Assembly (NCBI GenBank): GCA_963377175.1
Contig: CAUJNA010001591.1
Coordinates: 190,001-254,000, forward strand
Reading direction: 5' to 3'
Source of the DNA: Effrenium voratum
Taxonomy: Eukaryota > Sar > Dinophyceae > Suessiales > Symbiodiniaceae
DNA length: 64,000 bases
A program made the translations under genes and the position numbers. Position 1 is the first letter of the stretch; every line of letters starts with the position of its first letter. This document shows positions 8,667-63,575 of this stretch, one piece after another. The notes below the pieces were generated by a model, which was not told the origin of the DNA, made no database searches, and was given only the letters and a program-made list of their open reading frames with translations.

Positions 8667-11600
8667 GCTGACCGGTGAACGCACACGATCCGCAAACCGG
8701 CACGCTGAGGATGTCCCTCTTTTGGACACCTCTGCTTGAGGTCCCTTTTCAATTGTTTGTGTCTTGCTTTTGGTGAGCGTTTTACAATCCTTTTTCTATC
8801 AAAGCAATCAAGTTTCCAATTGTAGTTGCACTCCAAGATAGTGTCCACTGCTCCAAACCACTACCCCCAAAGTTTAATCTAGGTCCCCCACTAGTGCTCT
8901 TTTACCCTTTTTTTGGGGAGGCTTCCCCTACTAAACTAGACTCCAGAAAAAAGTTGGCACCCCTATTCTAACCTCTCTACTGGAGGACCTAGCTATATAG
9001 CAGTGTGGGCTGGTTTCCCATGATGCCATACAACTGGTTGATTAACTCGTGAGCTCCTAGTAATGGACCTGGTATACAGCCACCGCAATGCTGCTATCCC
9101 CCCCCCCCCCTCGGTTTTCCCTGTGGACATCCCCCGTCAAACACCCGCCCCTGGCCAGGACATGCGCGACAGCGACCCGCCGGTGCATCCAGACATTGTC
9201 ACCTACTCCACCATTGTAAAGGCTGGGGAAAGGAGCCAAGCAGCTTTGGTTTTTGTAAAGTTGTGCTTGGAATGCTAGACTTACGAAACTCCAGGGAGCA
9301 ACCATGTTCGGAGGTTTGGCTGACCGTGCATGGGGCATCGGGACCCACCCCTTCAAACTAAAATTGGACCTTCAAAATGAAGGGGGAGGGAGTTCTATGG
9401 CGAGCTTACGCGGAGGCAAAACGAGCTCACAATGATGTGGGTTCGCTACTTGGGTGTTCCCCGTTTCACTTGTTGACAGTTGTTGCAGTTACTGTGAAAT
9501 TTGGAGATTTGCAAATAGTCCCTTTTGTGGGGTGAGAACTTGAAAATGGAGCAGGGGACCGCACAGCCGCTTTCGTTAAGATCCAGGGGGTCTTGGTATG
9601 ATGTTGACGCCTGTTTGGGGAACAGAAGGGCCCGCCATGGGGCCTGCGTTTGTGAAATACCTGGAAAAATCAGAACCGCACGCATCAGTACACCATTCCA
9701 ATGTACTCTGGAAAAGGACATGTGACCCAAACCTTGAGAAAACCAACAAAAACACAAACACCCCGAGAAAGCCTAAACCCCCCCCCAAAAAAAAAGCAAC
9801 CCCCTGGGGGAAATGACCAGTACCTCCCAGGTTTGTTTGTTTTTTTTTTTTAAGGGGGGGTTCTCGAAGTTTTTCCACTTCCCTTATTGTCCCCTCAGTG
9901 TTTTCCGATTATTTCTTTCATATTATCTCCCAGCATTCCATTATATAGCATTCCCTTACCATTGTCTGAGAATTCTCTTAAAAGTCATATTATGTCCTTG
10001 AATATTCCCCCATCCTTGCCATATTCCTTTAGTATTCTCTTGCCCCTAGTATTCTCTCAGCACTCCCCAGTATTCCTTTAATATTCCTCAATATTCCCCT
10101 AGTATGTTCCTAATATTGACAATACTTCCCTAGTGTTCCCTTAATATTCCCCTACCCCTTAGTATTCTCTATTCTTTTAGCATTATCTCACCCCTAGTAG
10201 TTGTATTCTCCTAGTATTCCCCTAATATTGCCCTAGTAGTCCTTAGTATTTTCTTGGAATACCCCTAGCATTCTCCCAATATTCCCCCAGTAACCCGAGC
10301 ATTCCTTAGTATTCTCTTGGTTTATTCATAGTATTGCCTCCCTAGTATTCTCCTAGCATTTCCTCTTGTTATTCCCCTGGTATTCTCTTATTATCCCCTC
10401 GATGTTTCCCTAGTTCTTTGCGACTCAGAAACTGGAGCGCAGATGCAGGATACCAGGGGAAGTACAAAGGGGAATGGAGAATACTAGGGGAATATTTGGA
10501 GAATACTAGGGGCGCACCCAGAAAATATTAAGGAATACTGAACAGCATTAGGGGAATACTATGGAAATACAAATCTAGGGGTAAGGGAATGCTAAAGAAG
10601 TAGAGTACTATTAGAGGAATACTAGGGGAACACAACTCTGGGGGTAAGAGAATTCTACAGGAATGGGGAATAGCAGGGGAATGTTGAAGAAAAGGTAGGG
10701 AAGTACTAAGAAGCTGCTAAGGGGAATATTGAAGGAATATGTGGGGAACACTTGAACACTGAGAGAAGATTAGGCGTATGCCAAGACAATACAAAAGGAA
10801 TTTGGGGAATACCAGGAGAATACAGAGAAGATTATGAGGCAATATGCGTGGAATATTCGGGGAGTACCAGGAGAATACTAGGAGAATAATAAGGGAAATG
10901 CTAGGGGTATATATATATATATTAAGGGAGCACCAGGGGATCACAAAGGGTGAATACTAAAAAAACAGTGGGGGAGTACTGAAAAGCATACTTGGGAATA
11001 GTTACTAGGGGAACACTGAGGAGATACTAGAGGGTATAACAGGAGAGAACTAAAGGAACTTTCTGGGAATACCGAGGGGATGCAAGAAAATTATTGGGGA
11101 ACATAAGGGTATGCCAAGAAGATACCAAAGGCACACTGGGGGTAATGCTAGGGGCATAATTCTAGGAGGGTACTAATTAGGGGAATACTGAGGGAATTTT
11201 GAGGAAAGATGCTTGTGGGTGGTCTTCTCCAAAAATCACCAAAGACTGCATGTGCGAGAAAAGGTGCATCCATCTATGCCAAAGTGTAAAAACAGGCTGA
11301 TTTCAAAAACACAGGCCCCATGGCGGGCCGCTCTCTTGGGGAAAGGGGTTTTTATTGGGGGTTCTTCATTTCAGGAGACTCTGGGCTGCTGCATCGGGGC
11401 CATAGTGCAATTTCAGATAGTTGTTTTCCGCTCTACTGGTGACAATAGCGAGGCAGCCAATCGCGGGCCTGGCTTAGCATGATTCCGAGGATGCTGAGCG
11501 ACCGATGTTGGTTACATTTGTGCGTGGTGTGGTTGTGCCTTGGCTAGTAGGCATTTGTATGTATTTGTCGGTCGATCTGCAAGCAGTGCGGTTGGGGTTC

Positions 11601-14600
11601 ACATAGAAGTCATGTAGCTTGTTGGATGCAACAAACTTAAAAACTGTCCCGATGCCCAACGTTGTCATCAGATTCATTCGGATCCCTACCGAAACCTATT
11701 CGCATGTACCCCTAGTTGTCGTTGTTGGGAAAACAGCTGAGATCTTGGTGGTGGTGTTCAATTTATCCATATATGTTTGCAACTGTCCTATTGGCTAGCA
11801 ACTGCAGCAATTTTATGTTCCTGAAAGGCAGTGTGGCTGAACAGTCCCATGTTGCGTCATGGTGCACGTTGTGCATGTACGACTTTGCTTTCATGCGCTT
11901 GCCTTTCGAGCTGTTTGAAAGTACAATGATTACCCTTGCAGAAACAGGCAGGAATTTCCGGTTGTGAAAGCCTGTGAGCTCCCAAAAAGGAGGTTCTTGT
12001 GGGTTTGTTTAAACATTTTTATTTATTTTTTCGCCAGTTTGCAGTAAGTCTCCTTTGGCGATGTTGTCTGGTTGGACATTCGTTGCCCGGGATCCTGTCA
12101 AATGTGGCTGGGCCAATATTTCCTTGTTCTATGATATTGTTGGGTCAATCTAGGTCTTTCTGATGAGGGTATTTGTTTTGTGTTTGTATGTTAGGGAAGC
12201 CCAAAGGAAAGCTACCCTTTGCAGGGTTCCCTCAAAGGATCAAACACCTGGGGCACAGTCCTATCCGCCTTTGCTAGGGCTACTGTATGGCTGGGGACGT
12301 CGTCTGGGGCTCAGCATCGGGGTTCTTGGGCTTCCCTTTTTTGGGAGAGGCACTTTGTAGAAAACACAACCTCTCAGTCCCTTTCTGATTTTTAGAAGGC
12401 GATTGGGAATTGGTTTGAAACTGGTTGCGCTTGTTTTTGGCCCATCCACGAGCTGCTAGTTGGGGCGCTGTTTGTGGTTTGCTGCTGGTTTTGCGAGCGT
12501 TTCTGGGTACTTGGCGATTTGCCGGGGTGCTGGATCCGTTGACACCGCGATGGCTCAATGTTCCGCTCAAGCCGGCCATCGCGAACTCAGGGGTGCTCGG
12601 AACCTCAAAGCAATGACCAAACTGAGGGTGGAACTCTTTGATTTGTTTGTCCTTTGCCAGCGACCGGACATGGAAGACCGTGTGGGGTCGTAGCAACCCT
12701 GAGAAGCCTGGGGCAAAGAGTGAGGCGGAGCCCCGAAAAGGGCCGGAAGATTCGAGTCTTAAGCCTGGGGTTTGGGGTTGACGGACACGCAAGCCTGAAG
12801 TTCACCAAGTTCCGGGCAGATGTGAATGGGAGAACTATCCCAAATGATTCCCATTGCTTCCTCAGCGTAGGCACTGAACAAGTGGAAAGGGTACCACATC
12901 AACATGTCCAACAGCGTGTGGTGTTTTTTTTGGGTTTCCTTTAAACACAAGCCCAAACAAAGTATGTTCATGAAAAGGATGAGCCCTCAACATGGGCGGA
13001 AGCTCCAAACAACCTTAAGACAACCAAAAGGGTTGAAGGTTTCAGAAGAGACAGTCGACACTCAGGACAAGGGCTTCGCACTGCTCAAGGAGATGAAGAC
13101 CCATGGCGGCGTGAAGCCTGACGAGGCGCGTCACGCGCTCCTCTCTTCCCCGAATGACCCAGAGTTCCACCATTTCCCTTCATCTACAGACGTGTAGCTG
13201 TCATTTGCGTGCATGTTCACAACTCTCTCAAAGGCTGACGCCAGTGCCCTTTTACCCTTTTTGGGGGAGGGTTCCCCTTCTAAAATAGACTACCGAAAAA
13301 AAGGTACCCTTATTCTAACCTCTCTACGGGAGGAGCTAGGATACATTTATCTTCACTTCCCCTCTCATCTTCCTTCAGCTGCGCGCCCACACGCCTGGCA
13401 GATCTTCAGTTCCTCGCTTTGTTCAGTTCCTGCCGTCACGGCCGGGTTCGAAGCCAGCGGCGGGTGGAATCCTCTCGTCAAAAGATGCACCCCTGGCCAG
13501 GCCAACACCTAGGAGAACCAGGAGTTGGTTTAAGCAGCAGGGAGCTGGCCCAAATGCAAGCTGGCCTATCCTCTTTTTAACATGTAAGCGGACCGGGGGC
13601 TTCCCCAAAAGGGAGGCTTTCGGCTTGCGAAACCCTATGATCGTCAGTTTCCGTGATTGTTGAGGGCAAACTGCTCAAAGGCGATTGCCCTGGAATAGTT
13701 TGCTTGTCAACTTGCTAGCAAAAATGGACAGAACCGTGGGAACTCCCAATTCTGTATGATGCAGGGAACCTCTTCGGATGGGGGAATTCAGCATTGTGGC
13801 TGGTTTTCCAGTATCACAGAAGTGGAAAGGCAAGTCCGGCCAATTTTGCCCTGGATTTTGCAGGGCGGTCTTACCATTTTCAAGTTACGGTGCTTTACAT
13901 CCAAGGTATACAGTTGGTTTCTTGGATTAATTCCGCATCACCATTGTGCTTCAGTTTCCTTTTTGGTGTCGTGATGTTTGAAGATTACAACTCCCCTACC
14001 CCCCCCCCATATCTCGTTCCTCGCCTGATTGGGGATCGCCCGGCGAATGGTTGCAAGCAAACCAATCAGAAATTGGAATGGAGGATCTGAAAATCCGCCA
14101 GGGCTTTTCTCTTATCCCTTGGTGTCGAGTGGCCCCGCGGCAGGTGCTCTACAACAGCCTGCTGGCCCTTGGGCTGCAGAGTCGAGGCTCCTGACAGCTG
14201 ATCTGATCCCGTTTTCCAGTTTGGCAAACCAAAGGAACCACCCTATTCATTCATTCCTTCATTCATTCGTTCGTTCGTTCGTTCAGTCATTCATTCATGA
14301 AGATGGATGATTGCCTACAATAGTGCTGCCTGGGATCTGGGTTTACTGGAGACCAAATTCCATTTCTTGTGCCATGCTCTTTGGAGCATTGAAATATGAC
14401 ATTTGAGCATTGGTCGCAGATATGTAAACAGCTCCTGTAAAACAAGACCTGACATGTTGATATCCGCTTTGGGAATTTGGCAATGGACAATCCTTTGTAC
14501 AAAAAGCGTCCAGGTTGAGGGAGTCAGTTAACCCTCACTTCTGTGCTACCTTTTCGGTGGCCCTTGTCCGTGAAGTGCATGTTCGTCTTGCTTGAGGTTT

Positions 14601-17600: not shown

Positions 17601-20600
17601 GAACACGGAGGTTGGACCCTCCAACTACACGCTGAGCATCCTGTGCAAACTTCTGGGCCGGGCGAGGCACGCCTCGAGTCGAGAGTGTCGAGTCCAGCCG
17701 ACCGAAATCAGGGACCTGGTGGCCATGAAAGTGACATCGAAATTTGACGCTGAGAATATCCGGTTGAAGAGAAACCTGAAAGGAACATTCTGTTGCAGGT
17801 TTTCCAACAGGGTTTTTCAGGATTTTCTAGAAGTGACATCCCCAAAAGGAACTTTGAGGACCCCTGAAACCGCTGACTTCAAGTGATTCAGTTTAAGGGT
17901 GTCCCTTTTGGAGAGCACCAGTTTAGGGGTTAGTTCAAAGTGAGGCCAAGAGACAACCGGTTCCTCTTTGTTTTGTGTGTTTGTTTCTTTTTTTTGGGGG
18001 GGGGGAGGGAGGTGGCGGTTTGCTGTTTTGAGGCAACCCCTCCCTTGTTGCAGGGATCATAGGATAACTACTTGAAAGGGGTCTCCAAACAAATGTGCGT
18101 CTTTAATTGCCATGCTTCTTTGTAAGGTTTGAATGCTCGACCCTCAATTTTAGAGATACCATTTTGCAATTCGACGCATGACCTTGCCCACCACACCAAA
18201 CATATAAGCAGCATAGGTTTACTATCTATATATACACATACATATATAATCCTGTATCAGGTTGGAAGGCTTGGGTTTACAGGCTTCATTCTGCAAGGAG
18301 TGTATTGGATCATGCGGGGCCTTTTGGCTCAAGCATGATCCAAACTGGCTAAATTTTAACTTCTGGTTTGCGGGTTCGGCAAGTGTTACTTGTCGAATGT
18401 TGGCAGTTCCAGGAGTTGACTTTGCCGTACACACGGATCGTCCTATCCTGTCCACAGGCGCCTACCTCGACTTCAAGCGCCATGTGGGCAACTTGCTGGA
18501 GCAGGGGAATCGTGGCAAGGCCCGGATGCTCTGGCTTTCAGCTGTGGAAGTTTTGCATGCCCCTTTCGTGCAAGCTCCCCTGCCCTTGGTTGATAGTGGG
18601 GAGATACCCCACCTGCAATTTGCACCCTGCATTGATGCCCAGTGTGCGAGATGTGACGGGTCCCTTGGCGGCTTCAAGTTCCCGTTCATCGGCACTTGGT
18701 GCCGGCGTGCAGTCTTGGTTCAAGAAGGTGCATCTGCAGCGGAGGCTTGGGCCGCCTATCATGGGTGCTATGAGGGGGATCGCCTGTCTGAGGCCATGGT
18801 GGCTGAAGCAGGCAGTGGCCTCCGTGCCCAGGACATCATCCCGATGTATGTCTCCGCCATCGCTGGCCGGGTGGAATCTGGCGACCTCCCCTTCGTTTCC
18901 TTCAGGGGCTTCATGGGACCTGGAGGAAATGGAGCTTGGGTGCTCGGAGGTGGACCGAGCCATGGCCCAGGGAGAGCGACTCCCTGGCCAGAGCCACAGC
19001 GGGGAGGCTGCTCCGTGGGTGGCTGGACGAGGGTAGGAGGAACCTCCCTCTGGGCGGGCTTTGCGCCTACTGCGGGAGCAGAACTCACTCTGTGTGCGCT
19101 TCATGTGGCATCCATCAATGCGAAGTCTGCCCCATCCGCTGCTGCCAAGGCTCTACGCTGGGGGGCGCTGCTCTTAGCCATGGCGTTTCGCGGTGACGCC
19201 ACTCCTGGGCGCTATGCCACTGAAGCCATGGAGCACTCCGGGGGCGACCCGGGCGGCTCTGGCGAGGGGCTGATGTCTCGTGTGCAGGAGGCCAACGTTC
19301 GAGCTTTTCGGCAGAAGCACGGGCTGTTGCAGGACTCCGACTTCGGCTTTGCCTTTGAGGCCTTCGAGGATGCGGTCCGCGCGGGTGGCCACTTCGTCGC
19401 CGCTGAATGGGCGCGGGTGCGGGCGGAGCAACAGGCTCACCTCCTCCCGGCAGGCGCGGCAGTGGTGGAGGCGGACCCCTGGCGAGTGACGCCGGTGGGG
19501 CCATCGACCCTCCGCCGGCCGGCGGTGCGGCTCCCCACAAGCAATGTGGGCCTGCGGTTGAGGCAGAACCCGGACAACGCCGAAGCGGTCGGCCGCAGGG
19601 TCAACCTGCTGACGGAGGCCTTCATGAAGCTGGGCGTCCTTCGGCCCCGGAGGTACGACGACCCGAAGCGCTATGCCGACTGGCAGCAAGCGGTTCGGAG
19701 GCTCGCTCAGGAACGAGTCACCCAGTCCGAGGCAACCACGATCTTGAACGCGGTGAGGACGTTCCAGGAGCTCTCGCTCTTCCTCGCAGCCAGGGGCGTG
19801 CAGGACCCGGAGGAGTTGGACTTTCACGCCTTCCTTGAGCAGGCTATGTCGCCATCGCGAGCGCTGCAGTCATTGCGCTGGCTGTCCAACAACGGCAGGT
19901 TGCAGTGGCAGCTGGACCGCCTGAAGCCCCCCAAAGTTATTGGGAAGGTGCGCAAGGCGAGGTCCCAGGCCGTGGTGGTGGAACCGCCCATGCTGCTCAC
20001 CCTGGAGGGCCGGATCATCGAGATGCAGCAAGCCCGAGATCCAGCTTGGACAGCAGCGCTGTCGTCGTGGCTCGTGGCTTCGGGTTGCCTGCGCTACAAG
20101 CACTTGAGCTTATCCACCCCGGTGAAGATCAGCAGGGAGTTCTTCCACGGCCACTGCCGCAAAGGGAAGCAGTCCCATAACCGGCAAGGCTTCGACTGGT
20201 GTGCACCAGCTCGTTTCTCCAACGGTTGGCATTGGGCCGACAAGTGGTTGGAGGACTATCAGGGGCTTGCGCCGGAGCAGCACGACCCGGCCTCTGGCCA
20301 GGCGTGGCCCATCCGGGAGGTGCAGAGGGTGACTCAGCACCTCTTCCATGGCGTGGTGGAGCCCCTCGAGCAGCTCACTAGCTATTCCTGGAGGAGGTTG
20401 CTGCCGACGGTGGGCTCTTTGATCCGCCTTCAGGACGCGGAGATCGTTTCCCTGGGAGACTGGCAGGACAAGGTCGAGGAGCGTGTCTCGATGCCGTTCC
20501 ACTACAGCGGCGGCAAGTACGCCTTGTCCATGCGGACCAAGATGAGAGCCTTCCTTGTGGCGGCCAAGGTCGCGGACTGCGAGGCCTGGGAGACGGTCAC

Positions 20601-23600
20601 GGAGGAGGAGATCGCCGAAGCCGATGAGGAGGCCAAGATCAAGGCCGCTCAGGCTTGCCGAGGGGACACAGAGGTGATCTGGGCCCAGGCACCGCAGACC
20701 ACGGCGCTGAAGAGGCGTTTCTCCCTGAGCCAGTCGCTCGTGCACAGTGCCCGGGAGCGGATGAGGAAGCCGGCCCCCTCGGCCAGGGCCATGCCATCCA
20801 GGCTGGGCGAGATCTTCCTCACGGGACATTTGAAGAACGGTACAGCGTTGTGCCCGGACTTCAACACAGGCGAATGCCGCCAGGACCCGTGCGCAAGGGA
20901 GCACTTGTGCGCGATGCTGCAACAGACGGGCAGGGCATGTGGAGGACGCCACCCGGCAAGCGAGTGCCGAGCAAAGCGGCGGATGACGGAGGCGAAGCTT
21001 CGCGAGCTGGGGTTGCCTGTGCCGGCTGACCCTGTGGAGGTGGGGGCGACCCGCCCCGCAGGAGGCGCCGGCTCAGAAGCGCCGGAGGATCTTGCCGCCG
21101 CCACTGCCAATCGCCCCGGCCGGGCCCATGTCATCCAGACCGTCGGCCGAGGAGCTCCGCGAGGCTGCAGCAGCCAGCCGCGTTGTGGAGGTCGAGGATG
21201 CGGAGATCGGCGAAATTCCTGCCTCGGTGGATACCATGCGCCCGGCACCAGCCGAGGTCCCGGGCAACTTCTTGGAGATCCCGGAGTGCCTGGGTTTGAA
21301 CCCAGCCGACAGCAAATGGGACCGGTTGGCAACCGTGCGGGGGAAGTCCGCCCAGACCCCATCGCTGATCTACAACAACGTGAGAGGAGGAGCCCTCTTT
21401 TTGGCGGGCATCCCCACGGCAGTCACGGCCGCAGCCTTTCCAGCATGCAGCCTCCAGGTGGTTTGCTTCCCGGAGAGGCTGGCCCAGCGGCAAGGTGTGC
21501 CCCTGTCCGGGGCTCACGCGGAGTACTTCGCCATCGCCCACGCCGACCGACGACAGGAGGACTGGGACAGGGTGTGGCCCCTGGTACGGCGCTCGCTCTA
21601 TCACGGAGACGTCGTCATCGTCCACTGCATGGCGGGGCGTCACCGAGCCGCTCTTGCTGCGGCGATGTGGCTGGCGATGCTGAAGGGGATCAGCCTGGCG
21701 GACGCAGCGGGGGAGATCCGGAGATGCCGCGATGTGGAAATCACGAAGACCCTGCAGGACCGCAAGCTGGCCGGATGGGTGCACCAGGCGCTGGCGAGCT
21801 CCTCAGCAGGTGTGTCTGAGCCGGTGTGCACCGGTTTCATGGCCACTGCGAAGAGCCAGGTCCACATCAGTACGGCCAAGGGATACCCGCTCTGGCAGCG
21901 CGTCGAGCTGACCGGCTGGCCTATCCGCTGACCACCTCGGACAAGTTCGAGGCCATCGCATGGGAGCAGCGCTTTTGCCGGACTTGCCTGAGCAAGTGCC
22001 CGGCTAGTTTCCTCCCTCAGTGAGCCAATTTTGGCCATGGGCGCCGGATTCGGGCTGCCCGAATTTAGTCCCCCATTTTGCACGCCATAGGAGTGCCGCG
22101 GGGCATTTGCCTGATACATTCTTCCGGGTGAAAAACGGGAGCGGCAGTACCAGGCATTGGATTGCCCCGACATGCATGAGTCACGGAGCATAGCCAGTCG
22201 ACCATGCGGCATTCGTTTTTCAGACAGTTTCAACCGATTTACCATGCACCGTGGCAGGCACCCTGGGGATACCAGGGAGGAGGCCGGGGGGCGTTACCTC
22301 CCGTACGGCCGTCGGCCGCGGTATGCGGAGTTACCGGCGAGTGCACGCCAGGGGTCATCTTCCATGCCATTTTTAGCGAGTTGAGGGTTGGGTTGAATTC
22401 GGTTGTGTGTTTCCTCCGTTTCCCCCCCTCTCGTGTTTTTGGGGAGTCTGTTGAGGCCCAAGTGATTTCGCTTACACCTGGAAATCGCATGGCGACTTCC
22501 CTTGTCCCGTCAGACGGAGCCGATTGCCTGGACAGGCTCGGCAAGAATTTTCAATTGGCAGCGGAGGTAGTGGAAGCGCTTTCCAAGGCGGGCATCGCCA
22601 ATTTGGAAGAATTCCGCTTTTTCTTCGATGGCTTGGGAAGATCCAGTTGGGAGCGGAAGCTCAGATCCAAGCAGCCAGATTGCGGAGAGCCTGGCATTCG
22701 GTCTCGTTGTACTACAAGACCGCCGAGCAGGACCGCTCGCGGGTCGCCATTGAGGACCTCGATTCCCTTCTCGGGGATACCGAGTTGAGATCCGCTAAGG
22801 AAGCCTTCTGGGTACGCTACAAGCTCAAATTCCCCACGGAAGTGTACCCCAGCGATGCTGCCGTGTCCAGGGCTTCCAGGGAAATGTCCAAGCGCCTCTT
22901 GTGCGTGACGGCCGTCTGGAAGGTGAAAACCTTGCAGTGGCAGCTCGGCACCTCAAGCAAGAAGCGCAAGCTTGGCGAAGGCCTGTGGACGGAGGAGCCA
23001 GACGACGAGCAGCCCGGGCACCAGGACTGGGAAACGTACCTGGACAGGCTCTTCACGTTGCTGCTGGCCTACGCCCTGGGCGGGGTGAAAGCGCTGGACA
23101 ACGCGCCCCCGGCCAAGGAAGAAGACGCGCTCGGGGCGGACACCACAAAGTTCGTCTACGTGCCGTTGGACGTGGTGATGCGGTACCACGCGAGAGCCCG
23201 GCGCACATCGGCCAGCCTGCCCTATGCCAGCCGACTGGCATGGCTCCAGCAGCGGGACACTGAGGAGAGGGCAGACTGGGTGAGCCGTTTCAGGGAGTCC
23301 ACCCTGACGCTGGGCCAGGTCATCAAGGCCACATACGAGGCACGGGACGCCCACTGGGTCCCGACCGGAAACCTCTCGGCGCCGACCAGGGAGCGCCCGC
23401 AGGCGTCGCCTGCCAAGCCGGCAGCAAGGGGGGGCAAACCCCCGCTGGCAAAGCCGATCGCAGGGAGAGCGGTCGCACGCGCCATGAGAGATGGCACCGT
23501 GCTCTGCCAGGCTTTCCAACATGGGCAATGCAAGGCGGGGCAGTCATGCCCCAACGGCCAGCACAGGTGCGCTGCGATCCTCAGGGGCGACCGAGTCTGC

Positions 23601-26600
23601 GGGATGCAGAATCACGGAGCCAAGGAGTGTCGGGCAGCGAAGAAGTCTTGAGGGTGCCCTGGGGGGGAGAGGGACTCCCCCATAGGGTCAGAACTCTCGC
23701 ACCCCCACACCGGAGCCCAGGAGGGCGGCCCGTTGATGGTCGACCTCATGTGTGGTCCCAACATGCCCCTGGCGAAGGCGTTTCTGTTTTGTGGCTGGAG
23801 GGTGCTGCCCATCGACTGGTCGCTGGACCCGGGGCACGACCTGTCTAACCCGGTGAGGCAACAAGCACTGGAGGCGCCGATGCGGTCAGCAGCCTTCACA
23901 GCAGCAGCTCTGGACTGCTCCACGAAATCCAGGGCCAGAGAGATCCCCAGAATCTTTGCGGACGGCCGCCCAGGTCCCAAACCGCTGCGTTCTGAGGCAC
24001 ACCCAGAAGGTTTGCCCGGGCTTGACCCCAAGAACCAAAGGCGGGTGGACGTGGACAATGCGGCATGCTCCTGGATCCTGAAGCAGCTCCAGGCTATAGC
24101 AGACGATGGCAGAGGGGCCCTGCGGGAGAACCCGGCTCGAAGCCTCCATTGGTCCCTCCCGCAGGAGGAGACCATGATGGAGTCCGGCCTCTGGTACGAT
24201 ACAACGTACTCGGCATGCGTTTTCATGTCAGCGCGTTGCAAACACCAGCGGCTGCGGCACAACATCCATGAGATCGAGCTGATCCACCCCCGCGAGTGCC
24301 ACCATCAGCATGCAGCCTGGGAGTGGGATCCTTGGGAGGACACCCAGGGAGACACCAGTTCCCATCCAAGGAGGAGGCGGAGTATTCGGCCACCCTGGCC
24401 TTCGCCATTGCGGTATCGGTCAGTTGGTGGGCGGTCCGAGAAGGGCATGCCCGACTCCACGTGCCTCGGATGCCGCCGCTGGAGGCGTGTGGCCGACGGC
24501 AACACTGGCTGGACATCGATCCCAGAGCTATGCGTAGCTGGGCCATGACTCCGCTGGCCATCACACTCGGGTTGCCACCACTGCATCCCGAGAAGCGGGC
24601 ACGGCTGCTCACGGTGGTACGAGTGGCGGACGTACTTGCCGATGGTAAGCTGCCTCCGGACGTGGTTTACGTGGGTCAGGGCCACCACTCCCACCGGGTC
24701 CCACGGTCTCAGTGGGCATCACCGTTCGTGCAGGGGCACACCTGTACGACGGACGACTGGCTGCCGCTCTACGTGGACTTCGTCCTCGCCAATTTGCAGG
24801 CGGAGCTGCCTGCGCTGCCAGGCAAACGGCTGGCATGCGATTGCGGCCCGGACGGTGTCTGCGAGGCAGATGCGCTGGCTGGGATGGTCTTTGATGCGAC
24901 CCATCCGGATGCCGAGGCTAGCCTGCCCAGAGTCACTGGGAGGCGGCACAGGCAGGCCAGGGGCTCTGTGGTCAGGGCGGCGACCATCATGGGATCGCTC
25001 CGAGGCAGTGACGCTCTGCAGTCGATGTCACTCTGGTTTCCGCAGGAGGACGTAATCTTGGCCTTTCGCAAGCTCTACCCGGCAGAGTGGTTCCAATCTT
25101 TTCAGTGGCCCATGTTGGAGGACCTGTTGAACAAGGAACCCTTTACGTGCTACTTGGACTGGCGCCAGAGCCGCGGGATGGAGTGGGACGGACCCCTGGG
25201 GCCGCCCTCTTCGTCCAACGCTAGTCGGAGGCGGCAGCGGTTGGCAGAGGGGAAGCAGCATGGAGCCTACAACCACAAGGCCTCCATTCCACCTCTGGTA
25301 GGATATGGGCTGGAGCCGGACGCCCATTTCGCCGCATCCCTGCAGTGGACCCACACGGCAACCCCGTTGGAAGTCCCTCCTACGTTGGACGACGACCTGT
25401 GGTACGCGGCCAGCATGGTGATGGAGAATCACGACCTAAAGAGTCGCCGCCAGGCGTCCATCGGGGCCATCAAGGAGCTGAAGCGCAGGTGGGCGCCGGT
25501 GTCCAAGCACCTCGTGGCCTTCCAGTCCGAAGCCATCCGAGGAGTTACCTCGAAACGCGATCTGGGTTTGCTGGGGCTCTTCGTCGTCCTCATGCAGTGG
25601 GGCGACTTCGCCCTCCCTCACGGCTTCATCAAAGGCCTTCCAGCAGTGGGCTATGCCCCTCATTACGGAGTCTTCCCCCACCAGCCCGTCGAGGCGATCG
25701 CCCACTCGGAGGTACTGGCTGGTTGGGAGGAACACAACGCCGCCACCATCGCAGGAGTGCGGCCGGGTTCCACGGACTCCTTCGTTCTTGAGCAGTCCAC
25801 AAAGGATCACAAGGACAGGTTTTGCACCCCCCCGATGAACCTGAGCCAGCTCAAGCGGTATGCCAAAGGAGACCCATACCGGCTCATACCTCGCTGTGTC
25901 ATCACACAGGCGTCTGGCAAGCAGCGTCTGATAGACGACGCAGCACGGGGCGGGCAGTCTGCATCGTCCAGAGATGCCAACAAACTTGTTTTGTGTACGC
26001 CGCTCCGCCCAGCGCTCCACGTCCAAGCCGCGGCAGCCTGCCTTCAGGAGTGCACCTGGGAGCGGTTCGCGCAGCAGGGGCAGTGGACGGGAGCTGGAGA
26101 TGATTGGCCGAATGCCTACCGCCACTGTCCTATGTCACGACAGGAGGCCCTGGCCTGCGTAGTAGTTTGGTACCACCAAGAATGGCAGGAGCCGGCCTTC
26201 CAGGTGTACCACGCCCTCTTGTTCGGCCTTCCGTTGGCGGTCACCTCCTTCAACCGCTACTCCCGGATGGCAGAAGCTATGGGCAGGCGTTTTCTGGCAA
26301 TTATGGTGTCCATGTATTTCGACGACAGTCACATCACGGACCGCGCAGTACACGGCCCATCAGCCCAGTGGAGTTTTGGTGCCCTCAACGACCTGCTGGG
26401 CACCCCATTTGCTGAGGAGAAGCGCCAGGGAGCTGCGGATGTCGGTACCTTCTTGGGGCTTGATTTCGATCTCTCGGAGGTCCACACACATGGGCGCGCG
26501 CGGTTTTGGGTTCGAGAGCGACTCGAACAGAAGGTGCTCACCTTCATGCGCGAAGCCAGGAAGAGCGGGAAGTTCACCCCGGGTCAAGCCGCGAAACTCT

Positions 26601-29600
26601 ACGGCATGGTCAACTTCCTGGAGCATGGCCTCTTCGGGCGCATTGGCTTGGGCGAAATCCAGGCGTTGAAGGAGCACCAGTACGGGGGCTCCAGCAGAGC
26701 CAACGCCAGCCTCCTGGCGGCTTTTGACGTGTTGGAGGCTATCATCAGTATGCGCCCCAGGAGAGAGCTGATGGTCCTCCCCATGGATGTGCCAAGGGTG
26801 GTGGCTGCCTCGGATGCGGCTTTGGAGGCACCTCGTCAAGGATCCGGCGGATACCACTTGGTCTTCCAGGACGGTGGCGTGCAGATTCGGGAGGCCTTTG
26901 TGGCCATCATCCCCACGCAGACCTATGACATGTGGGGACCAGGAGACCATAAAATAGCCCAGTTGGAGCTTTTCATGGTGGTGCACGCCCTTACGGCGAG
27001 ACCCGACCAATTCCGCGGGAGACGCGGAGTGTGGTTCATCGACAACATCGCCAGTCTTATGTGTTTGATCAGGGGCAGGAGTGACAACCCCGACTTGGCC
27101 AAGATGGCGACGTATATTCAGTGTTTGCTTTTTGCGTTGCGAGCCTCACTTTACTGGGAATACATTCCATCCAAATCCAATTGGGCCGACGCGATCAGCC
27201 GATTAGGACCCAGTGACCCATGGTACAGGGCCAACCACTTCAAGTTGAATTTCAGTCTTTTCCCTCCAGCTCTACTGAGGCTTCCGTACCGAGCAGTGAT
27301 TACCTTTGCTGAGTTCCTGTGAGTGCATTGGGAGAGTTGTGAAAGAGGTTGTGAAAGTAAGTGCGTTGGGAGATGTATCCTGCTTGATGCAGGGCATCCA
27401 GAGCTTATCGGGGGTAAACCCGATGTGCCGAGGAAATCGGCGAATTGACTGGGCCACAGCATGAGGAAATTCATGCTGTGGATACCAATGCAAATCCCAC
27501 AGGAAAAGGTGGGTTGTCAGGCTATCAGACTCGTAGCGCATCGCTGGAGTGAAAATGCTGCGGTGCTGTTTATGTCAAACCTCCTTGGGAATGTAATCCT
27601 GTATCAGGTTGGAAGGCTTGGGTTTACAGGCTTCATTCTGCAAGGAGTGTATTGGATCATGCGGGGCCTTTTGGCTCAAGCATGATCCAAACTGGCTAAA
27701 TTTTAACCCCACCCTATCCCGCCCTAGGTCACCGGCCCCCCTAGTTGGGACGTCCGTGATCTTTGAAGAGCGCGCCGCGCTTGGGGAATGCCTGGGGGAC
27801 CAGGCCCCCAGTCAGTCAGTTAGCTCTGTGGTGGGAGATGTATCCTGCTTGATGCAGGGCATCCAGAGCTTATCGGGGGTAAACCCCTCCCTTGTTGCAG
27901 GGATCATAGGATAACTACTTGAAAGGGGTCTCCAAACAAATGTGCGTCTTTAATTGCCATGCTTCTTTGTAAGGTTTGAATGCTCGACCCTCAATTTTAG
28001 AGATACCATTTTGCCATTCGACGCATGACCTTGCCCACCACACCAAACATATAAGCAGCATAGGTTTACTATCTATATATACACATACATATATACACAT
28101 GAACACTTTTTTTTGGGACACACACACACACACTTTTTTTGGGGGGGAGGGGGGGAGAAAGCGTTCGGAGCGCCTCCTCGCGACCCTTGCTGCCCCTGTC
28201 AGGCTCACCAACTTCGCCCCCCCAAAAACGCGCGCGACGGAAGCCATGCGGCCGTGGGGGACCGGTGCGCTCACCGTGCGCTCGCCGTGGGCCGCAGGCG
28301 CTTGGAGCAGGCCTTCCAGATGGTGCACAGCTTCACAGAGCAGTACGGCTTCAGGGCCAACATCCAGGCGAGATGTTTCTGTGAAATGTTTGCAGGTGAT
28401 ATATGCATTTACTCTCATCTAGAATCTAGCCTCATGAAGACTTCCCCCCTGTTTTGCCCGGAGGGTCCAAAAAGTTGGTATTTGCCAGTGCAGTGGAGCA
28501 CAATAGCCGCGAGGCACAGCTGAAACAAGTTCATCACACACCAACACCAACACTTCATGGATCACCTGATCGCTTGTTTCCACCTCAGCTGCCGGAAGAT
28601 ATTCCTCCTCTCCAGGAGCTTTGCTTGTCAACCAGAGCTTGGGCTTCTTGGCAAACCTCCCGGATCCGAAAAATCGAAGAACAAACAAAAAGAAAAAACG
28701 AAAGCCACAAAAATGCCGTCGATTCGACGCGGCCGAGCGTCAGGTCTACACCTGCCTCATGCAGGCCTGCTTCCACAACCGCCAGGGCCAGCGCGCGGTG
28801 GCGCTGCACGATCAGGCGCGTCTCGGTCGGGGCGACGGAGTCGGAGGACTGCAGGGGCCCTCACCGGCCGTGAACATGTGCACAGGGAACCACTCTGGAA
28901 ATTGGTTGGCACATAGTTGGCGGACAGAAATCCCGAAATACCAGAAAGTGGCTATCCGGGTTCTCGGACTTACTGTTGGCGGTTTCCCGTCAAGCACCCG
29001 TGAGGGTAAGGATGCTCTACCAAATGAAGGGCGCCTGGTGTGGGATGGGCCACGTTTCTCGCCCAACAAGTTGTTGGGCATGCTGATGCTGCGGGCAAGG
29101 TGATGAATGTCCAATGTCCTTTTGCAAGTATGCAACCCCTGAAATCAGTGAGTCACTGTTAACTGTCTATATATATATATATATATATATTATGTGTATC
29201 ACATCGGGAAGGTGCCGCAACATGCTCGAGAGTCGGCGACCTTTTCCTGGCCGCCATCTTTGTGCGTTGGCTTCGACGTGTCAGGCAAACAGGTTAAGAT
29301 GCTGAGGGAAGTGGTCCGAGTTTACTCCAAATATAACCACGGTTCTCGGCGCCGGTGGTAACCTGCTTGCCTGACCTTGGAACAGTCAAACAGTCAGGTG
29401 GTCAAGGAAGGCGGCTGCATGCCTGATGAGAAGACCTATACTGCCCGGGCTCCCGAGTCGATTGAAAGCCTGGCGTCATGCCCAAACAAGTCCCAGCAAT
29501 TCCATGTCCCTTGTGGCGAAAACACCTGTTACAGTTCCTTTAAAGACCAAAAGGAAAGGGTTGGTTGCCGAGCATAGAAATGTGCGATAGACGGGATGGG

Positions 29601-32600
29601 TTCCCTTGATTTTCTTTCGATCAAAAAGGATAGTTGATGTCTACTTAAACTTGTTCGGGTATGATGTGAACTGACCAAGTGACCTGGAAAATCCATATTT
29701 TCCAAAAGCCAGCCTGCAAGACATGGGTCCTTGTGTATTTGAGTGGGGAAACCATGGTTGAAACCATGGTTGGTTGGTATTTACGTAGGGGAATCGACTC
29801 CGAATCCGTTGGGTTTCTGAACGGTGCGAGCGGATGTCGCAACTCCATCCCCATGAATTACTTGTTGCCCTTCAGCCCTGGAGGAGATTTGAAGGTACAA
29901 GCTGTTGCGTCGCGGTGGTGGATCGATCCCCTCGCTGAAATGCAAAGCGAGTCAATTGAATCTAAGCTTGAGGTTTTCCATGCTTGGTTCCCAACACAAT
30001 AGCTGTTCTGTTCTTTTTGGTTGACTCGGCTTGGCAGGCTAATATTTAGTTTCTCTTTGGGGTAAGAACATGGAAGTCAGCTGTCAAATACAGGGGTCCT
30101 TTGGCAAAGAAGATTCTTGGGCTCTTTCTTAAATGTATCCCCAGAACTGGCCGTCCAACGACCTTTGGCGACACCGGCTCCAACGCACCCCTGGTCCAGG
30201 AGTTGGAGGTGCCAACCCGGTGTTGAACCATGAAGCGCGCTTCTTTTCCGCATAGGCTTCATGGTCTGGTAATTCGGTCGATCAACGTTGGGTTACATCT
30301 TACATATTTGCCCTTTAGAATGATGATACTAAAGTCAACTCGCAGGCTCAGGGTTGAACATTGCCCAAGGAGGCTTCTTGGTTTGGTTGGTTGGTTGGTT
30401 GGTTGGTTGGTTGGTTGGTTGGTTGGTTGGCTGGCTGGCTGGCTGGTTGGTTGGTTGGTTGGTTGGTTGGTTGGACCTGCGTCCGAGGGTCCAAGCTATT
30501 TTCCCCAACGCCTGCTGCGGAGGTCATGGTCCGCGGATGCCTCCAGGGAGGTTTGGTGGACAAGGCCCTGCAGGTTGCGCGCTGCGCATTCCACCTGCCG
30601 CTGGGCAGAAATGCCCGAAAAGAAAGTGAGGTTGGTGGAAAGGGGGATTATAGGGAACCCATCCATTTGAGGGGTTCCTCTATAGGAAGACAAGCCCAAA
30701 TGAGGATGTTGTGTGTTGCTAGTACCGCAGCTCCGGGTGCAAGGGGTCGTTCCGTGCCGTTGTTCGGGTGTTCGCTGTCCTGCAACTGTGGGTTTTGCCG
30801 TGAGGAGGGCTCGAGGCATGTCAGATGGCCTCTCAGAGTCATCGTGTATTAGTGAGGGGTGCGATCCCTTTGTAAGAAGATACCACCCCAAAATGTCTTC
30901 CTTTGAATGTCATCCCTTTGTACCCAGAAATGTCTCATAGCTTGGTTCAAATTTAAATGGCAACCGGTAAGGAGCCAAGACCGGAGTTTCCTGAAATTCT
31001 AGGGGACACTTCCCTATTCTTTCCAGGGATCCTTCTTTCCCAAACACCATCAGAACCCCAGGCGAAACAGATCCGGTTTTTGAAAAGCACGATGGTAGAA
31101 AAGAATGGAAAAGGAATCAACTCCTAGGAAAGCTTGGCTTCCGTTGAACCCCCCTGACCCCGCCAAAACGCAAGGGGCCACGCAAGTTCACCGCGGCCTA
31201 ACACCCGAACTTTGGGTCATGTCCGTTTTGGCTTGCCTTCCCGGCCCAGCTTCGTTTGGAAGACGGTGGCATCTAGGTCCCCCAGCTAGGTGCCCTGAAA
31301 GCCGTTTCTTTTTTGGGGGAGGGTTCCCCTACTAAATTAGACTACAGAAAAAAGCACCCTTGTTCTAACCTCTCTACTGGAGGACCACACCAGCAACGGC
31401 TTTCCATGCACTAAGCCTGGGCGTTTGCTCACTGTCAGGAACTGCAGACCGAATTGCCGCCTGATGGGGGGGCGAATGGGAGCAAGCTGTTTGGCTTGGC
31501 CCCTCCTGCCTTTTCGGGCTATCCTCAATCTTCTCGGCCCGAATCGGAGAAAAGGCAACAAGCAACACATGGGCAGACGAAGGTTTGGGCCCAAGAATGA
31601 GTGGGGCCTTCCGCTCGTGAAGACCCCGGATTTGAATTGTGCCTCAGGTGGCCCAATTTCAGCCTATTGTGGACCCTATTCAAATAAACATGATTTTTCC
31701 CACCAGCACCCCCCCAATCACTGCCTTTTGGACAGTACTTGCGATTTTGGACATAGGAAAATGTAGCTGGTGGTGGCAGACTCTAAATCTTCCAACTTCC
31801 GTCGGGTAAGCGAATGGGGGTTTCTTTATTTTAGGGTATACTTTTTTTGGTGGTTTTAAAGGTCAACTCGTCCGTCCCAGGCCGGGCCACGACATGCGGC
31901 AGACCTGCGTGATGCAAGGGGTGGGGGGCTGAGAGCCTTGCGCCGCGGAGGGTGAGCTGGGAGTCTGGGAGTGCCGCTTTTGAGAAAACGGTGGCTGGCA
32001 AAGGGACACCAAAAGGACACCGAAGGGCCAGCCCAATTTTCTTACGAGCTCATACTTGGCCAAGGCTTTTTTTGGGGGTCCAAATCCTTGAATCCAGCTG
32101 ACAAGCTGGGGCGAGCTAGCAATTCGGGGGAAGGTACAAAGCCTGCGAACAGATGGGGAGAGTGAAGAACCCAAACCTGCAACCCTTGGCATTTCCGCAC
32201 ATTTCAACGAGCATGGCAACTGCTGGTTTGAGCTGCTGCTTTTGGAGGGTAGCAAAAGAAATGAACAACACAGAGTTATATAAGTTGATAAACCAGGAGG
32301 TCAAGGGCACAACGGGCTGCAGGGGTTCCTGATTGTGCTCCAGGGGCCTTTTTGTAGGATCATTTGGGCGTCCCGGGCCCTCTTGGACGTGGGAACACAT
32401 ATCAAAGTCAGTTCCGCTCAAGGGCCGACTTTGAGAAGGGCAAAATCAAAAGAGCATGTTTTCAGAAGCCCCTCTAGACCCCTTTGTTGCTCAACGACCC
32501 ATCTTTTCAGAAACCAGCAACCAGGGGGAACATCAGTTGTTTCAAGAACGATGCTTGGACAGAATGAGGAATCAAGCTCTAGAACCCTCTCAAAAAGACA

Positions 32601-35824: not shown

Positions 35825-35948
35825 CTAGGTCCCCCAGCCAGGTGCCCCTTCTCACCCCTTTTTTGGTTGGGAGGGGAAACCCTATTAAAACAGACTACAG
35901 AAAAAAGAAACGGTACCCTTATTCTAACCTCTCTACTGGAGGGCCTAG
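35825..35948. repeat. F1 element, copy 4, with 4-bp target duplication
   Basis: Both ends are present and TCAA flanks the copy on each side. It lies 54 bp after the exon-like piece at 35,735-35,770. Confidence 0.88.
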
Positions 35949-55780: not shown

Positions 55781-55900
55781 CTAGGTCCCCTAGTAGTGCC
55801 CTTTTGCCCTTGTTTGGTTGGGAGGGTTCAACCCTACTAAAATAGACTGCAGAAAAAAGGAACGGTATCCTTATTCTAAGCTCTCTGCTGGAGGACCTAG
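55781..55900. repeat. F1 element, copy 6
   Basis: Both inverted ends are present. It is directly followed by a half copy of F5. Confidence 0.88.
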
Positions 55901-57383: not shown

Positions 57384-58361
57384 AAGTTGAATGTTGGAAA
57401 GAAGTCAGCTGCCCAAAGGCTTGAGAGCTTCAGCTGCGTGGATGGCCCAGACCTCTAGAGGTGCCTCTCTTTTTTTGAACACAAATGTTTTCTTGGGTGC
57501 TTCCCATTAAAACTGACGACTGTACCAAAAAAATCGGGTTCTGGGACGGCTTCAAGATGGTCACTTTCCACTGGGCTAATGTGGCGTCCTGAGGTGGTGG
57601 AGTTGGGACCTCTAAGCCAAGACATTCTACTCCTCACTTTGGCATGTTTGGTTATATGAATATATATATATAGATGATCTGATTTGGAGACAGCTAGGGA
57701 CTTTGTATACTGTACTGTGGGTTGCATGTGTTGATCGATTGTTTCGCAAGCCTATTAGGTAAACGGCGACCTCACAAAGGTTTGAGTTTGCGCTCAACTT
57801 CACCAATGATAAAGTGTCTTGTAGGAATAGTGGGAAGCCTTTGATTTGGGTCGGAGAATTGTACTTGTGCCAGCACTATGCTTCTTTGTATGGTTTTCCC
57901 GACCCCTTGGTACTGTAATTCTCCCAATTACGGTTCAAGGGCAACCTTAAAAACAAACACACCCACATTGTTCACCTATCAGCTGCAGGATGTTGTCCAT
58001 CCACCTGGGTTCATAACAGCCTTTGACAGGCTTCCTAATAGGTCCCCTTTTGGGTGTTCGACACATTACCTTTTGGTGCCAGTTTAACATGAGTTTCCGA
58101 ATATTTTCAGGTTAGAACATATGGGGAGAAAACTTGCGCGATACCAGGCGCAGAAGGGGAACAACGTGAAGATTTTCACTGCCGCGGGGTCTGCCGCGGA
58201 GGCGATTCGATGGTGAATTGTCATTCTAACTGAAAACGGTCTGGTGAATTTATGCGCACCAGCCATTTGGGAGGGAGTGCTTAGCCATATTAAGGACTCC
58301 CCCAAGTTCGTTTCAAGTGACTTTTTTCTTTAGTTCCCTCAAATGTTGCGGGGGAACTCTC

Positions 58362-58470
58362 CAAGGTCCCCCAGTAGTGCCCTTTCACCTTTTTTTGGGG
58401 AGTCCCCTACTAAAATAGACTACCGAAACAAAGGGTATCCTTATTCTAACCGCTCCACTGGAGGTCCTAG
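58362..58470. repeat. F1 element, copy 7
   Basis: It has AGGTCCCCCAGTAG at the left and CCACTGGAGGTCCTAG at the right. Confidence 0.87.
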
Positions 58471-58885
58471 TCTCTATTGATCGGAGGTGAGGAAAGGGAA
58501 CAACAAACAAAAAGTCTCTAAGCTGCCCGGTGGCATGCGATCCAGCGTGTTGAGTCTGCCTTCCTTAGAGCCGATTTGTTTTTGCAAAGGAATCATCCCT
58601 CTGAGGTGATGCGCTTGGCTCCCCACTCGCGTCGTTTGAGGAACCAAGCCTTCCTGGTCCGCCGGTAACCTGGCTAATCTACCCTGCATGAGACTGTGGT
58701 GCCCTCAAGTTTTGGGAATTGTCTTTGCTGAGTCATGGGCCAAATGCGTTTCACTCGGCGCCTTGTCACTGATTCTCTTTGGGGTTGCTCTAGAGACCGG
58801 TAGAAGCTTGGCGCCTTCGTCCTTGAGGTTTGGGAGCGCGAAACCCTTCGGTTCCTTTCTGAGAACCATGTCTGTGGCACGTAGC

Positions 58886-60010: not shown

Positions 60011-60123
60011 TTAGGTCCCCCAGCTAGGTGTTCCTTCTCTCCGCTTTATTTGGGGGAGGGTTCCCCTACTAGACTACGGAAAAAAGGGTACCCTTATTTT
60101 AACCTCTCTACTGGAGGACCTAG
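60011..60123. repeat. F1 element, copy 8
   Basis: The left end is TTAGGTCCCCCAGCTAGG and the right end CTACTGGAGGACCTAG. Confidence 0.87.
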
Positions 60124-61176: not shown

Positions 61177-61295
61177 CTAGGTCCCAGCTAGGTTCCCTTT
61201 CTCACCCCTTTTTGGGTTGGGAGGGTTCCCCTACTAAAATAGACTACAGGAAAAAGTTGGTACCCTTATTCAAACCTCTCCACTGGAGGACCTAG
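61177..61295. repeat. F1 element, copy 9
   Basis: Both ends are recognisable; the left is CTAGGTCCCAGCTAGG and the right CCACTGGAGGACCTAG. Confidence 0.87.
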
Positions 61296-63460: not shown

Positions 63461-63575
63461 CTAGGTCCCCCAGTAGTGCCCTTTACCCCTTTTTTGGGCG
63501 AGTGTTCCCCTACTAGAGTAGACTACAGAAAAAAATTGGGTACCCTTTTTAGAATCTCTTTACTGGAGGACCTAG
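63461..63575. repeat. F1 element, copy 10, with 4-bp target duplication
   Basis: Both ends are intact and TATC flanks the copy on each side. Confidence 0.88.

Follow-up and report, generated by a model that had tools for sequence, protein, structure and literature searches.

The 64,000-nucleotide (nt) stretch of Effrenium voratum DNA analyzed here (the window; positions 190,001 to 254,000 of contig CAUJNA010001591.1) contains a retroelement between positions 18249 and 27886 on the plus strand. Its parts are arranged as A1-ORF1-Gag-Pol-B1-A2-B2 (ORF, open reading frame), which is the split direct repeat organization of the order DIRS and is the arrangement given for PAT, Ngaro, VIPER and SymbioDIRS elements in the cited portions of PMC4157794, PMC8547959, PMC6681497 and PMC5890265. 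The reverse transcriptase (RT) and RNase H share one ORF, as in that order, and were recognized by RVT_1 matches, domain models and catalytic motifs. The G+C content of the element was 0.62, against 0.49 on its left and 0.50 on its right. The features are listed below; database relatives are referred to by number (P0088 and so on).

18249..27886, plus strand: whole retroelement, from the outer end of A1 to the outer end of B2 (split direct repeats)
18244..18360, plus strand: A1 terminal repeat, 117 nt, 99.1% identical to 27591-27707; 5 bases shared with the flanking repeat
18397..21084, plus strand: ORF1 first part, frame 1, tyrosine-recombinase-like (motifs; relatives 36-92% identical)
20848..20967, plus strand: CCCH-type Cys/His cluster of ORF1 (pattern)
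21047..21892, plus strand: ORF1 second part, frame 2, dual-specificity-phosphatase-like domain (PF00782, E 1.6e-4; HCMAGRHR at 21623-21646)
21895..22023, plus strand: ORF1 C-terminal Cys-containing tail, frame 1, ending with the stop codon (P0088 and P0080 align up to 22005 in tblastn)
22489..23651, plus strand: Gag-like ORF, frame 1 to about 22632 and then frame 3 (tblastn with P0028, 44% and 49%)
23502-23630, plus strand: second CCCH cluster, in the Gag-like ORF (zf-CCCH, E 0.15, below the cut-off)
23736..24338, plus strand: Pol N-terminal methyltransferase-like domain, frame 3 (motifs at 23913-23948 and 24123-24152; identity 55% to P0012 and 64% to P0003)
24347..24646, plus strand: Pol, C-terminal part of the methyltransferase-like domain and linker, frame 2 (tblastn with P0012)
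24647..24880, plus strand: Pol DUF4326 domain (PF14216, 31.4 bits, cut-off 25; residues 118-195 of the ORF starting at 24296)
25796..26730, plus strand: Pol RT, end approximate (domain models over relatives; DDWPNAYRH at 26099, YFDDSH at 26315-26332)
26750..27322, plus strand: Pol RNase H, start approximate, to the stop (domain models over relatives, motifs)
27362..27421, plus strand: B1 internal repeat, 60 nt, 97% identical to 27827-27886
27591..27707, plus strand: A2 internal repeat, match to A1
27827..27886, plus strand: B2 terminal repeat, match to B1

The near identity of the A and B repeat pairs speaks for a recent insertion. Alignment with relatives by tblastn nevertheless showed several frame changes in this copy, across ORF1, the Gag-like ORF and Pol. 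In ORF1, frame 1 is open from 18250 with its first ATG at 18397. The match to relatives stays in this frame as far as 21084, moves to frame 2 for 21047-21892 and then returns to frame 1, where it reaches 22005; the last base of the stop codon is 22023. Pol begins in frame 3 near 23736, switches to frame 2 between 24338 and 24347 and ends at 27322. Judged from the reading frames, either the copy is broken or the assembly may contain indel errors. We put the probability at about 75% that the element is a recent but frameshifted copy from a dinoflagellate lineage of tyrosine-recombinase retrotransposons of the split-direct-repeat type. The RVT_1 model (PF00078) matched 6 of 28 relatives at E 0.1. 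The RNase H region had no Pfam match and was recognized by the motifs ASDAALE (26807), IAQLEL (26954), FIDNIA (27035) and SNWADAISR (27176). The Pol profile gave 0 matches among the sequences of solved structures, and tRNA and Rfam scans of the window gave none.

The initial annotation described a DIRS retroelement that encodes phosphatase-like, methyltransferase-like and DUF4326-like domains, and this description was borne out by the split repeats, the DUF4326 Pfam match, the predicted folds and the relatives. Of its expectation that each extra domain would match a family profile, the DUF4326 part held (above cut-off), the phosphatase matched below cut-off with support from its fold, and the methyltransferase-like domain had no match, its assignment resting on fold and motif register.

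The annotation had singled out full-length relatives lacking these domains as decisive, and 84 Pol relatives were collected, from which 28 near-full-length ones were chosen for alignment. The closest named ones were E. voratum gene models, P0084 (98% identical) and P0080 (92%), over 11% and 22% of the Pol query, respectively. All four Pol parts occurred in order within one protein in 38 of the 84 (E 1e-3). The RT was present in 81, 41 of which had at least 600 residues before it and 40 fewer. Both the methyltransferase-like domain and DUF4326 were found in 37 of these 41, DUF4326 only in P0045, the methyltransferase-like domain only in P0047 and neither in P0049 and P0071, all four exceptions being gene models of Symbiodinium sp. 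CCMP2592. Both were also found in 5 of the 40 relatives with fewer residues upstream. Relatives with enough upstream sequence thus largely keep the two Pol extras, while the phosphatase side of the comparison is one-sided. The three extra domains also occur in relatives from other dinoflagellates.

Mean pairwise identity among the 28 aligned relatives was 0.55 for the methyltransferase-like domain, 0.46 for DUF4326, 0.55 for the RT and 0.56 for RNase H, against 0.29 for the linker after DUF4326. Distances in the three non-RT domains correlated with those of the RT (r 0.71 for the methyltransferase-like domain, 0.87 for DUF4326 and 0.84 for RNase H), and did so among the 23 closer relatives as well (0.47, 0.69 and 0.74, respectively), with 0 of 2000 permutations as high in either set. 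These values fit a domain set that was inherited together, less tightly for the methyltransferase-like domain. Pattern scans for relatives matched 36 (whole Pol), 14 (methyltransferase-like) and 33 (DUF4326) stretches in viral contigs and 39 stretches in prokaryote genomes, none of them confirmed by tblastn in scans that reach close relatives only.

Evidence for linkage of the phosphatase is narrower, because its relatives were found through a phosphatase query. This search scored 7998 candidates and returned 9 proteins, and recombinase ORFs without a phosphatase could not have shown up in it; a search with ORF1 scored the 7990 candidates with the most words in common and returned 3 proteins, each closely similar to the window. 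In P0085, P0087 and P0088 the recombinase-like part and the phosphatase lie in a single chain, and the two parts are in frame in P0085 and P0088. P0087, of the ORF1 type, and P0019, of the Pol type, carry the same longest-contig figure (243,959), which suggests that they lie on one contig.

The C-x5-R loop of the phosphatase was present in the window (21623-21646) and in 8 of the 9 relatives. Its PF00782 match lies under the Pfam cut-off and is supported by the fold, the predicted structure of P0088 having PTPMT1 and DUSP28 among its matches. As a guess, the chances that the domain is catalytically active on some substrate are about even. The tail that follows the phosphatase (21895-22023) has an extra Cys/His stretch common to P0086, P0087, P0088 and P0090, which perhaps binds zinc.

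The recombinase-like part of ORF1 was recognized by the motifs GCLRYKHL (20083-20106), KGK (20161), TSYSWRRL (20377-20400), LGDWQD (20452-20469) and FHYSGGKY (20497-20520). The spacing from the Arg to the Trp was 23 residues in 6 of the 9 ORF1 relatives, those in which it was measurable, and equals the R247-H270 spacing in an alignment of XerD, XerC, FimB and FimE. The CCCH-type clusters of ORF1 (20848-20967) and the Gag-like ORF (23502-23630) were 34-42% identical when ORF1 relatives were compared with the Gag region by tblastn, a resemblance that would fit the duplication of a single module between the two ORFs. For the ORF1 cluster, the profile built from the relatives matched muscleblind zinc fingers at E 5.9 and 6.1, which is chance level.

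Several observations weigh against our interpretation of the element. The recombinase part had no Pfam match, no recombinase was included among the 29 profile matches to solved structures, and the catalytic part was not covered by a profile comparison with Escherichia coli recombinases (P 0.19). The structure model of ORF1 was poor overall (mean pLDDT 53.6), and the matches listed for it were all taken by the phosphatase part. In an alignment of 6 of the 9 phosphatase relatives, from which P0080, P0084 and P0089 were left out as spliced or frameshifted models, no invariant Asp that could serve as the general acid was found ahead of the Cys, between columns 811 and 854. The tail of P0085 beyond the phosphatase aligned to the Gag region in another frame, indicating that P0085 is not fully intact. 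A further difficulty lies in the DNA on either side of the element, where a direct repeat (one mismatch) adjoins both ends exactly in this one copy.

18035..18248, no strand assigned: flanking direct repeat, left copy, 214 nt, 213/214 identical to 27882-28095
27882..28095, no strand assigned: flanking direct repeat, right copy, match to the left copy

Elements of the order DIRS are not known to produce a target-site duplication, and integration by a recombinase should not give a long flanking one. The 214-nt repeat resembles a very long target-site duplication and is unexpected on these grounds; the alternatives are a pre-existing tandem repeat or an assembly error. Words on duplication were sought in PMC2685390 and none were present. 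Elsewhere in the window, an imperfect palindrome of ~790 nt was observed at 10019-10805 (65.6% identity to its own reverse complement), along with a dispersed ~115-nt repeat in many copies of ~75-90% identity (8879-8992, 13243-13339, 31271-31386, 35825-35948, 55781-55900, 58361-58473, 60012-60123, 61177-61295 and 63461-63575) without a tRNA or Rfam match.

The methyltransferase-like domain departs from its presumed family in motifs I and IV. The matches listed for the predicted structure of P0002 were C5-methyltransferases, with scores of 10.6 for M.HhaI and 9.7 for DNMT3A (tied within 1) and with DNMT3B also among them, and this model points to a C5-methyltransferase fold. Motif counts were made on 28 proteins with a nearly complete match to the domain, out of 46 with any (a different 28 from the alignment set). 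In motif VI (Glu-Asn-Val) the Glu was kept in 27 and the Asn in 25, followed by Pro in 26. The Pro-Cys of motif IV was not found as such: the Cys was present in 26 of 28 and the Pro in none, its position being Asp in 27 and Glu in 1. Motif I lacked the GxGG common to five C5 enzymes. A profile comparison with these five gave P values of 0.009 and 0.0059 and aligned DCSTKSR with the PCQ motif. It counts for little, since it barely surpasses what unrelated proteins can give: of two unrelated pairs (0.46 and 0.013) one came this close. A profile of the methyltransferase-like domain plus DUF4326 had a single match among solved-structure sequences, a ribosomal protein at E 1.2. The DNA_methylase model PF00145 matched none of the 28 relatives at E 0.1 and no ORF of the window, and a Dam-like methyltransferase Pfam match was likewise absent from the window ORFs and the 28 relatives. 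The observed/expected CpG ratio was 0.77 in the element against a mean of 0.63 in the flanks (standard deviation 0.05, 4-kb windows); since CpG is not depleted relative to the flanks, self-methylation at CpG has no compositional support.

The most probable alternative is a catalytically dead domain that persists as a fold for binding cytosine or nucleic acid, methylation having been lost with the motif IV proline. The acidic residue in place of the proline, the altered motif I and the undepleted CpG all favor this view, to which we give a little less than an even chance; a dead enzyme, however, need not have kept the Cys and the motif VI Glu in nearly all proteins. In P0027 and P0030, and by eye in P0028, Pol is kept and the methyltransferase-like region lacks DCSTKSR, as if an activity had been lost in these side branches.

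A less probable possibility is that the element belongs to a further branch of SymbioDIRS-Dnmt3, with a fast-evolving or degenerate Dnmt3 that was captured once and with DUF4326 and the phosphatase as passengers. The shared host group, the A-coding-B-A-B repeats and the position of the methyltransferase in the RT ORF (cited portions of PMC5890265) speak for this, as do DNMT3A and DNMT3B among the structural matches. However, PF00145, which that source names as a model for finding DNMTs, matched none of the 28 relatives, the fold scores do not favor DNMT3 over M.HhaI, and the extra domains are conserved among relatives. It is very improbable that gene models, or nested insertions in this one copy, produced the combination artificially, as the frame changes in the window copy and the resemblance of some database relatives to spliced gene models might suggest, because relatives carry the same parts in single chains, both in Pol and in the three ORF1 proteins named above.

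DUF4326 contains CDC-x6-CEAD at 24836-24871, and its Pfam model matched 25 of the 28 aligned relatives at E 0.1 or better. When a two-domain model was compared with predicted viral structures, it matched a Solumvirus DUF4326 protein (33% identity, rmsd 2.9, E 1.5e-3) and DUF4326 proteins of other giant viruses, including Marseillevirus, Pithovirus and Pandoravirus, and of phages. In PHROGs, phrog_464, whose function is not assigned there, matched 11 of 12 pieces taken from 12 of the 28 aligned relatives, the first piece through its DUF4326 part; PADLOC gave no match for 4 proteins. The cited portions of PMC9503650 place DUF4326 in the rhodanese-phosphatase superfamily and predict that its substrates are the terminal phosphates of ADP-ribose or of the products of ADP-ribose breakdown, those of PMC7824862 predict a bridge from NAD signaling to DNA modification, and a medusavirus DUF4326 gene is listed as a virus-amoeba transfer (PMC6450098).

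How these domains might serve the element can be sketched from its type. Elements of the DIRS type make circular cDNA from their RNA by reverse transcription with the aid of the split repeats, and the recombinase then inserts this cDNA; the present element would be expected to follow the same route. Because they are in the same chain as the RT, the methyltransferase-like domain and DUF4326 are in a position to act at the new cDNA, and would travel with it and act on or around it; the phosphatase would travel with the recombinase. As a guess, the methyltransferase-like domain may bind or mark cytosines in the new copy. De Mendoza and colleagues proposed that retrotransposon DNMTs could self-methylate retrotranscribed DNA, and according to the cited portions of their paper Symbiodinium genomes are mostly CG-methylated, DIRS elements there occur with or without a DNMT, and the CG content is the same in both (PMC5890265). 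Methylation of the cDNA by the present domain nevertheless seems doubtful. By analogy with viruses, DUF4326 might remove phosphates or ADP-ribose-derived marks in host defense, a tentative proposal, and counter-defense through phosphate or ADP-ribose processing is possible. The initial annotation suggested modification of the element's own DNA, of RNA or of host proteins; we infer such a role only provisionally, since the active site of the methyltransferase-like domain differs from that of C5 enzymes and CpG is not depleted in the element.

Taken together, these parts could be seen as a virus-like counter-defense kit in a dinoflagellate retrotransposon lineage: a changed C5-methyltransferase unseen by Pfam, an ADP-ribose/phosphate-processing DUF4326 and a phosphatase fused to the integrating recombinase. 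We consider this full proposal unlikely; if true, elements counted as methyltransferase-free carry a hidden one, and NAD/ADP-ribose-based immunity acts on algal retroelements. Retrotransposons with extra enzymatic domains reveal which functions a mobile element may require in its conflict with the host. A lineage with a conserved C5-like domain missed by Pfam in all 28 relatives implies that some elements counted as DNMT-free may carry one, and the ADP-ribose role of DUF4326, so far based on viruses (PMC9503650, cited portions), becomes testable in a retrotransposon setting. The original observation is right and is stronger than the annotation could show, with the roles of the extra domains being putative.

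The annotation also knew of no earlier description of the combination, which agrees with the open-access papers searched. Phosphatase and DUF4326 have 0 occurrences in PMC6338049, on accessory domains of retrotransposons, and together with PF14216 have 0 occurrences in the main text of PMC5890265. By title, none of the searched papers that name DUF4326 is on retrotransposons, and those returned for a phosphatase domain in retrotransposons (PMC9025612 and PMC8381588) are on other subjects.

Comparison with known systems shows where the element resembles and departs from each. With SymbioDIRS-Dnmt3 (de Mendoza et al. 2018, PMC5890265, cited portions) it shares a Symbiodiniaceae host, the A-coding-B-A-B structure, a recombinase (here recombinase-like) in a separate ORF and a methyltransferase (here methyltransferase-like) in the RT ORF; the DNMT of that group clusters with eukaryotic Dnmt3, whereas the domain here has no Pfam match and altered motifs. 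PAT and Ngaro, as described in the cited portions of PMC4157794 and PMC8547959, have the same A1-ORFs-B1-A2-B2 order, RT, RNase H, a recombinase-like ORF and a Gag with a zinc-finger-like motif, but PAT has a Dam-like methyltransferase and Ngaro none, whereas the present element has a C5-like domain plus DUF4326 and the phosphatase. The latter has the fold and HC-x5-R loop of the dual-specificity phosphatases PTPMT1 and DUSP28, and differs in being fused to a recombinase-like protein and in its alignment lacking an invariant general acid. The DUF4326 proteins of giant DNA viruses and phages (PMC9503650, PMC7824862 and PMC6450098, cited portions) share PF14216 and similar predicted structures with the element; there the domain is reported in fusions with Macro, SLOG, NADAR, replication or restriction-modification parts, whereas here it lies within a retrotransposon Pol.

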